This document shows positions 2,583 to 11,270 of a stretch of 36,816 nucleotides of DNA, piece after piece (within the stretch, counting starts at the first letter, position 1; each line of letters begins with the position of its first letter). The stretch comes from Candidatus Omnitrophota bacterium (GTDB lineage Bacteria; Omnitrophota; Omnitrophia; Omnitrophales; Aquincolibacteriaceae), in NCBI GenBank assembly GCA_023247035.1, contig JAHFHG010000004.1:1-36816 (forward strand). The letters run 5' to 3'. The notes under the pieces were generated by a model that was not told the DNA's origin, made no database searches, and was given only the letters and a program-made list of their open reading frames with translations. Position numbers and translations under genes: made by a program.

Positions 2583-3410
2583 ATGTCTTCTCACCCTTTT
2601 CTCTCTGGAGTCGCCGTCATTTTAGCGGAGCCGGAAAATCCGGATAATATCGGGGCGGCGGCGCGGGCCATGAAAAATATGGGCTTTGAAGACCTGCGCC
2701 TCGTGCGACCGCCCAAGGCCTGGCGTTCTCCGGCAAAGAAAATGGCGATGTCGGCCTGCGACCTTCTTGAAAAGGCGGCCGTCTTTCAAACCTTTGAGGC
2801 CGCCGTCGCGGACCGGACTTTCGTAGTGGGGACGACACGCCGCCAAGGGCCCAAGAGGGGAGTCTTCCTTCCTTTTTTCGAAATGATCCAACGGATTCAA
2901 AAAATGGATTCGCCGGATCGTCCCGCCGTCGTCTTTGGAAAAGAATCCAAGGGATTGAATAATCAGACCTTAAGGCTGTGCGACTGGGTTACCACGATAC
3001 CCACCCACTGCGTTTATCCTTCACTGAACGTGGCGCAGTCGGTCATGACCGTCCTCTTTTCACTTTTCTCTTTTCAAACCGCGTCTTCTGCGACACAATT
3101 ACTGAAGTTTCGAGAATTAACGGGCGCGCGTTTTTCCTCGGGGAAAGCGTATCCGTTCGATTCCGAAACTTCGGTAACCGGCGCTCCGGCGCTCGTCTAT
3201 CTTTCCAAAGACCAGGTTGAGGACGTGCTGGAAAGATTTAAAGCAGCGTTGAGGGCATTAGGCTATCAAAGCGGCGGGGCGGATAAATTAAATCGAATCA
3301 TTTTCACCCTCCGCGATCTGATTAAAAGGAGCGGGCTGCTGGAAAGAGAAGCGCAAATGCTGCGAGGCCTTTCGCGGCGAATCTTAGAGAAATCGCAGCC
3401 GGGAATTTAA
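2583..3410 (+). CDS. trmJ: TrmJ/SpoU-family RNA 2'-O-methyltransferase with palindromic insert
   Basis: The product is 275 residues. The N-terminal SPOUT domain shows NPDNIGAAARAMKNMGF (motif 1), VVFGKESKGLNNQ (motif 2) and PSLNVAQSVMTVLFSL (motif 3, trefoil-knot SAM site). The C-terminal helical extension (VEDVLERFKAALRALGY...LLEREAQMLRGL) is typical of TrmJ, which methylates position 32 in the tRNA anticodon loop. Between the two, residues about 173-198 are encoded exactly by a 78-bp imperfect palindrome (3099-3176). The linker between the knot and the C-terminal helices is about 39 residues, versus about 17 in the E. coli protein as I recall it, so the palindrome looks like an in-frame insertion that keeps the gene open. 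Family certain; exact tRNA target inferred. Confidence 0.88.
   Translation: MSSHPFLSGVAVILAEPENPDNIGAAARAMKNMGFEDLRLVRPPKAWRSPAKKMAMSACDLLEKAAVFQTFEAAVADRTFVVGTTRRQGPKRGVFLPFFEMIQRIQKMDSPDRPAVVFGKESKGLNNQTLRLCDWVTTIPTHCVYPSLNVAQSVMTVLFSLFSFQTASSATQLLKFRELTGARFSSGKAYPFDSETSVTGAPALVYLSKDQVEDVLERFKAALRALGYQSGGADKLNRIIFTLRDLIKRSGLLEREAQMLRGLSRRILEKSQPGI
3099..3177. repeat. In-frame palindromic element, copy A (inside trmJ)
   Basis: The 79 bases fold almost end to end. TTACTGAAGTTTCG at the left pairs with CGAAACTTCGGTAA at the right (one wobble), then GAAT/GTTC-region pairs, AACGG/CCGTT, CGC/GCG, and TTTTTC/GGGAAA close on a 4-base CTCG loop. The trmJ frame reads through it as LLKFRELTGARFSSGKAYPFDSETSV with no stop codon. 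A second copy lies at 11180-11257 at the same length, with about 15 differences in 78 positions by my hand alignment and no gaps. Confidence 0.8.
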
Positions 3411-10432: not shown

Positions 10433-10472
10433 TCGAGCAGCTTTCATTTCAAGAAATAAGAATCTTTTATTG

Positions 10473-11201
10473 ATGTCACTATCTGCATTGGAGAGATTGG
10501 GACTCTCTCGATTACCAAATCTTCGGGAAAAAGCTCGAAGAATTTATAAGTTTTTTTCCAATCGTCCAGGAAGCGAGTACATTGCCAGCGCGTATGCGAT
10601 TCAGGGATTAATGGTCCTGCTAGATCGGTATCGGCCTAAAAGCGTGTTGGAAATTGGAGCTGGGATAGGCACGCTTAGCTTTGCCGCAATGCATATGTTA
10701 GATGAATGCAGAAAGGATACAAAAGGTCCATTTGCCTGGAAGTATTTTGCCGTAGAGAGTGATCGATTCTGTCTAGAAGAATTGAAGAAAAATTTAGAGC
10801 CGTGGGAAAGTCGCTTTACGATTGTTGATCATTTGGAAGAATCGAGTGAGCTTGTAAAAGATTTTGAGTTTATTATCCTTGACGGAGGGAAAAAAGATGG
10901 AAAATTTTTTGAAAAAATTCCGCTTCGCGCTACTCTTTTCATCGAGGGAGACCGCCGGCCACAAAGGGAACTATTGGAATCTGTGAGCCGTGGGCGAGAT
11001 TACGTATGTTTTAATGCTGTTGCTTTTAGATTTTTTAAAAGTGGCGGATATTGGGTTTATAAGTTTGAGCCTATGCTAGACGACCGGTTTTACCTTGGTT
11101 TTAAGTCTTTGTATTATCGGTCTTGGGCCGCCTGCAAATATCGCATTAAGCCAATCATCAAAATCATTACCAGGACTAGTTACCGATGTTTCGGGAATTA
11201 A
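10473..11201 (+). CDS. Class I SAM-dependent methyltransferase-like protein, 3' end within palindromic element
   Basis: The product is 242 residues from ATG 10473; a TTG one codon upstream is also possible. The SAM-binding motif I is SVLEIGAGIGTLSFAAMHML, followed by an acidic motif II (FAVESDRFCLEELKK) and motif IV-like FEFIILDGGKKDGKFFE. The target is unknown; a sugar or lipid-linked glycan is plausible from the neighbours. The final seven codons and the TAA stop (11199-11201) are supplied by the palindromic element copy that begins at 11180. The native C-terminus may therefore have been replaced. It is AT-rich like the neu genes upstream. Confidence 0.7.
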   Translation: MSLSALERLGLSRLPNLREKARRIYKFFSNRPGSEYIASAYAIQGLMVLLDRYRPKSVLEIGAGIGTLSFAAMHMLDECRKDTKGPFAWKYFAVESDRFCLEELKKNLEPWESRFTIVDHLEESSELVKDFEFIILDGGKKDGKFFEKIPLRATLFIEGDRRPQRELLESVSRGRDYVCFNAVAFRFFKSGGYWVYKFEPMLDDRFYLGFKSLYYRSWAACKYRIKPIIKIITRTSYRCFGN

Positions 11202-11257
11202 TGGACACACGTTTTCCCTCTGAGAAAGCGTATCCATTCGGTTCTGAAACTTCAGTA
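11180..11257. repeat. Palindromic element, copy B (3' end of methyltransferase gene)
   Basis: These 78 bases align gap-free with 3099-3176 in trmJ at about 81% identity by hand. The hairpin is preserved with compensatory changes: the C3121-G3155 pair of copy A is T11202-A11236 here, and two G-T wobbles of copy A (3124/3152, 3126/3150) are A-T pairs here. In the trmJ-equivalent frame it still reads openly (MFRELMDTRFPSEKAYPFGS and on), preceded by a stop codon. In the upstream methyltransferase frame it supplies the stop. Confidence 0.8.
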
Positions 11258-11270
11258 GTTCAGAGGCCTT

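Follow-up and report, generated by a model that had tools for sequence, protein, structure and literature searches.

A probable MITE-like palindromic element inserted in frame in the trmJ linker of an Omnitrophota bacterium

The literature presents protein-coding palindromes as peculiar to Rickettsia, though some parallels are known elsewhere in the Proteobacteria. For the Rickettsia palindromic elements (RPEs), whose length is given as 105–146 bp (PMC2229807), an unusually high frequency of in-frame fusion is noted (work of Ogata et al. 2000, 2002, as reviewed in PMC10969869 and PMC2229807). In-frame fusions are reported for other MITEs too (PMC10969869, PMC2229807, PMC5896051), and the protein-coding palindromic repeats of Wolbachia are known as WPE (cited in PMC3733652).

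The trmJ gene of Candidatus Omnitrophota bacterium carries a hairpin of this kind in the window, the whole stretch of 36,816 nucleotides analysed here. A first-pass annotation of the window knew of no such element in this lineage, and a search of open-licence papers found no report of one for Omnitrophota and none with this terminal sequence. Like RPE and WPE, it is a dispersed short imperfect palindrome that lies in frame within conserved genes and encodes a similar peptide in unrelated proteins, with no mobiliser found. It also shares with RPEs a palindrome covering the whole element, occurrence at several unrelated loci of one genome (ten copies here), and in-frame positions in unrelated conserved genes that have insert-free homologues. 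In contrast to RPEs, it is 79 bp rather than about 105–150 bp long, has about ten copies, two of them firm in-gene cases and most intergenic or at gene ends, and other copies of it were found only in its own phylum; the likeness drawn here is one of kind. The parallel with RPEs drawn at first pass is therefore kept as an analogy, by which the element may work as an RPE does, and does not extend to where most copies sit.

Other small repeats resemble it in part. The Correia/NEMIS, RUP and ERIC elements (PMC2229807) are likewise small, strongly paired and mostly intergenic, with TA-ended terminal inverted repeats; the present element differs in its long, near end-to-end palindrome and in that no parent insertion sequence was found here. 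The MITEs QMITE1 and QMITE2 of Coxiella burnetii (PMC5896051) likewise run across gene ends and in some cases lengthen ORFs or sit in frame within them, but they are 150–400 bp long with direct repeats that vary in sequence (7–11 nt in QMITE2), and QMITE2 carries a GTAG REP. The GTAG/CGTC REP families (PMC3733652) are palindromic, and some copies here end in GTAG; those REPs, however, are 20–40 bp long, often dimers, and have the tag at one end, whereas the copies here are single 79-bp units with symmetric TA ends.

The hairpin in trmJ and its host gene

Apart from the insert, trmJ is, judging by its predicted product, a normal SPOUT methyltransferase gene. The protein matches the Pfam family SpoU_methylase (7e-26), with the match ending at residue 158, and TIGR00050 (TrmJ/YjtD; 1e-45) over residues 9–269, with 156.5 bits slightly under the curated cut-off of 167. 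Since the SPOUT match ends there and similarity to homologues restarts near residues 201–207, the element lies at the linker between the SPOUT and C-terminal parts, where the first-pass annotation had placed it (Table 1).

The imperfect palindrome of 79 bp is nearly end-to-end and occupies exactly the position claimed for it earlier. When the stretch 3085–3190 is folded, it forms a single hairpin of −47.2 kcal/mol, compared with a mean of −29.9 for dinucleotide shuffles (z −4.9), and none of 200 shuffles was equally stable. The element begins exactly at a codon boundary, and its predicted translation, LLKFRELTGARFSSGKAYPFDSETSV, contains no stop; AYPFDSETSVTGAPALVYLSK is a predicted tryptic peptide across the right junction. 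The open frame proposed at first pass is thus retained, while the gain of about 26 residues is better put at 25 codons (75 bp), because four of the 79 bp would be the TA duplication plus the flanking Y and R.

Table 1. Features of the trmJ locus and of the second element copy in the window
Feature	Position	Strand	Remarks
trmJ, 275-aa ORF	2583..3410	+	SPOUT domain (residues 10–158), element-bearing linker, C-terminal domain
Palindromic element, copy 1, canonical orientation	3099..3177	+	TrmJ residues 173–198 and one base of codon 199; in frame
Left terminal repeat TTACTGAAGTTTC	3099..3111	+	matches pattern TTACTGANGTTTC within one mismatch
Right terminal repeat, TTACCGAAGTTTC on the minus strand	3165..3177	-	TTACTGANGTTTC with one mismatch
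Left-end TA, proposed target duplication	3100..3101	+	suggested by the Y-TA / TA-R ends of copies
Right-end TA, proposed target duplication	3175..3176	+	suggested by the Y-TA / TA-R ends of copies
Unassigned 243-aa ORF	10470..11201	+	last codons and stop (...SYRCFGN, stop) within the second copy; without Pfam match
Second copy of the element in the window	11180..11258	+	model R1 100 bits, E 3e-26, this copy being among the R1 sources; BLAST E 2.8e-16

None of 28 TrmJ homologues, taken from 28 genomes within the family and order, has the insert; this is the alignment that the first-pass annotation had proposed for finding an empty site, and the empty sites were compared at the protein level, at about 30–56% identity. 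The linker has 48 residues here versus 17–35 in these insert-free homologues. Such variable linker length is what would favour an old, ordinary TrmJ linker with a hairpin arisen by chance, yet the same element is found at seven other genomic loci and in no TrmJ homologue, and we consider that origin extremely improbable. In the AlphaFold model of TrmJ (mean pLDDT 87.6), residues 185–200 are below 50, and the start of the insert is modelled with moderate confidence as a helix end.

The repeat family in the genome and the phylum

A BLAST search of the 79 bp against the genome itself found seven further copies (77–85% identity, E 1.5e-19 to 1.4e-10). Oriented alike, the eight copies align over their full length and nowhere beyond, and their flanks are unrelated. 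The covariance model R1, built from these eight copies of 79–83 bp, recovers all its sources with 78–104 bits and adds a pair of 109 bp on contigs C8 and C57, which brings the total to ten copies in the 1.85-Mb genome. The members of the 109-bp pair are identical to each other and have the termini of the 79-bp form with a different core; their flanks differ, with similarity ending at the right end of the element. The copies on contigs C10 and C40, whose sites are unrelated, do not differ at any of their 79 bp. Dispersal is, on these alignments, by copying, and the copying is probably recent, since this 79-bp pair and the 109-bp pair are each 100% identical. The terminal pattern TTACTGANGTTTC, with at most one mismatch, is present at both ends of most copies genome-wide, plus one stray match.

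Two copies lie in frame inside conserved genes (trmJ and a ceramidase-AAT gene on contig C20), two supply a stop codon (to truA and to the window ORF in Table 1), and the others are located shortly after the stop codons of glnB and nuoI or between genes. Coding sequence makes up roughly nine tenths of the window (estimated from the ORF table), so the family mostly stays outside genes, like most MITEs. A 109-bp copy on contig C8 is read through by a 143-aa ORF (L068:2076-2507) in a frame different from that of the trmJ copy. This is a possible further in-frame case; the ORF is without Pfam match, and a search of 57 other genomes found no homologue of it.

The C20 gene (L066:2075-4618) encodes a neutral ceramidase domain fused to an acyl-CoA:6-APA acyltransferase (AAT) domain; in genomes G013, G038 and G055 the halves of this fusion match separate adjoining open frames. 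The peptide LLKFRGLTDTHFSSGKAYPFDSQTSV stands between the two domains, where the element shares its strand and reading frame with the TrmJ copy. None of ten homologues checked has the insert, and the linker comprises 53 residues versus 28 in four of them, a difference of exactly 25, or a net 75 bp in the gene. For TrmJ and the fusion alike, a chimeric assembly join is disfavoured, because a single homologue covers the protein halves to both sides of the repeat. In the AlphaFold model of the fusion, residues 434–457 are below 50, so that both inserts, in TrmJ and here, appear as low-confidence coil between confidently predicted domains. Together with the extra copies at unrelated sites, for which the first-pass annotation had suggested a search and which both BLAST and the covariance model found, and with the insert-free homologues, this second in-frame case supports its reading of the trmJ hairpin as a mobile insertion rather than an old linker.

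The placement of copies right behind the glnB and nuoI stops, overlapping the truA stop and between domains in two proteins could also be expected of a functional RNA element (a translational pause, mRNA stabiliser or terminator) recruited to gene ends and domain borders, with mobility secondary. Its positions are scattered, though, Rfam gave no credible match over the window stretch, and homologues of TrmJ and of the ceramidase-AAT protein have no copy at the same site, as for a selfish repeat; a primary RNA role is quite unlikely. Very improbable, too, is that the ribosome skips the transcribed element, or that the element is removed, a behaviour reported for palindromes in yeast mitochondria (mentioned in PMC6649704). 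A large hairpin within coding sequence might suggest it, but bypass is not needed, because both genes keep an open frame and the added length is divisible by three.

Beyond this genome, 20 relatives within the family and order yielded no copy. Among 384 genomes sampled from the phylum, one clear relative appeared, in G072. A broader model, R2, which includes the G072 copy and was run on 384 genomes of its class, found plausible diverged relatives also in G404, G282, G431 and G089. These four and the G072 copy are 76, 76, 36, 42 and 80 bp long, respectively; the shortest, in G431, rests on its termini. The diverged relatives have Y-TA-YTGA ends and, in most, an AATGGA core. Thus the search of the phylum proposed at first pass did yield relatives (36–80 bp), in five genomes, and since all five belong to other families of the phylum, the repeat family appears to be older than this genome but patchy.

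The 76-bp relative in G404 is read through by a 199-aa ORF (L157:234-830, minus strand) with a likely N-terminal membrane segment. Neither a Pfam match nor a plasmid homologue was found for this ORF, which may be a third in-gene case. Two matches in G102 were set aside, since their GGGACGTTTC ends suggest a different repeat. Hairpin repeats with GGGGACAGTTCTCC or AAAGGGGACACCCTTTTT cores, seen in G102 (L156, L161) and G174 (L134), are probably separate REP-like families of the phylum.

An exact scan for the terminal repeat in genome_contigs (84,980 species) gave three matches, in Prevotella, Parabacteroides and a Bathymodiolus symbiont, with about one expected by chance (an estimate). No Rickettsia record matched in this exact-pattern scan, which does not cover diverged copies. 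The symbiont, a methanotroph of Bathymodiolus japonicus (G060), has about 100 matches to TACTGANGTTTC (L105–L132), many of which bound elements of 205–210 bp and longer with apparent 5–7-bp target duplications, as judged by eye. Its mobilome is heavily expanded, with 127 matches to the DDE_3 transposase. The symbiont elements were considered as a parent family and rejected, being about 205–210 bp and longer and in many cases flanked by 5–7-bp target duplications, unlike the trmJ element.

Target site and possible mode of movement

Every copy starts with Y-TA (with TG as one exception) and ends with TA-R, and inspection of the flanks revealed no direct repeat longer than TA outside the copies. 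If TA is counted as duplicated target, the 79-bp form adds a net 75 bp and the 109-bp form a net 105 bp, each divisible by three; the copies that differ in length from these (80, 81 and 83 bp, and 36 and 42 bp in relatives) are intergenic or at gene ends. The TA duplication is inseparable from the terminal repeat, because TTA and TAA are also its ends. Four of the six frames of the element consensus contain no stop, whereas shuffles average 1.2–1.3 open frames (p about 0.01–0.03).

A MITE-like palindromic element was very probably inserted in the trmJ linker, likely at a TA. We propose that a short non-autonomous element, RPE-like in its action, entered the inter-domain linker at a TA dinucleotide, which would convert Y-TA-R to Y-TA-(73 bp)-TA-R and lengthen the gene by a net 75 bp (25 codons). 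Insertion in a flexible linker would be tolerable, because four of the six frames are stop-free and the number of added bases is divisible by three. The trmJ gene would then have been retained with an extra disordered loop, presumably neutral for the enzyme.

We infer movement in trans by an unseen TA-specific transposase; among DDE_3 and Y1 transposases of the genome, no parent was found. A parent insertion sequence with the same ends was not found in the genome, whose assembly is incomplete and in which these ends occur only in the ten short elements and the stray match; a search of the genome for DDE_3 (IS630-type) transposases gave a weak fragment and no full gene. The sole Y1 transposase gene of the genome (L155:411-842 with its flanks, contig C35) is of IS200 type and has CCCCGCGCATGCGCGGGG-type hairpins on both sides. 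Its 143-aa protein was rejected as the mobiliser, its flanking hairpins being unrelated to the element.

A REP-type element moved as single-stranded DNA by a RAYT/Y1 transposase would explain the strong hairpin and why no target duplication beyond TA is seen; GTAG stands at the end of four 79-bp copies, and the genome does have one Y1 transposase. However, that protein is the IS200-type one with its own hairpins, no RAYT gene flanked by the repeat was found in the genome, the element exceeds the 20–40 bp of REPs, and some copies lack GTAG at the foot. A RAYT-like route is unlikely, and a weaker rival to the TA-specific transposase.

The trmJ and ceramidase-AAT copies differ at 12 positions, and seven of these differences are synonymous in the shared frame, with about three expected (p 0.015). 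Selection on the peptide is only suggested by this excess, because fifteen pairs were compared in three frames and a copy pair outside genes has a similar value (four of five differences synonymous). We speculate, tentatively and from sequence comparison, that the relatives form a phylum-wide palindromic family of 36 to 109 bp built for survival in genes, frame-safe and landing in inter-domain linkers, whose peptide may then be held by selection. Since this separate family belongs to another lineage and offers two clear pairs of interrupted and uninterrupted proteins, it can serve to test whether palindromes of this kind are generally a source of new linker peptides and whether the frame-safe design is selected in the element itself.
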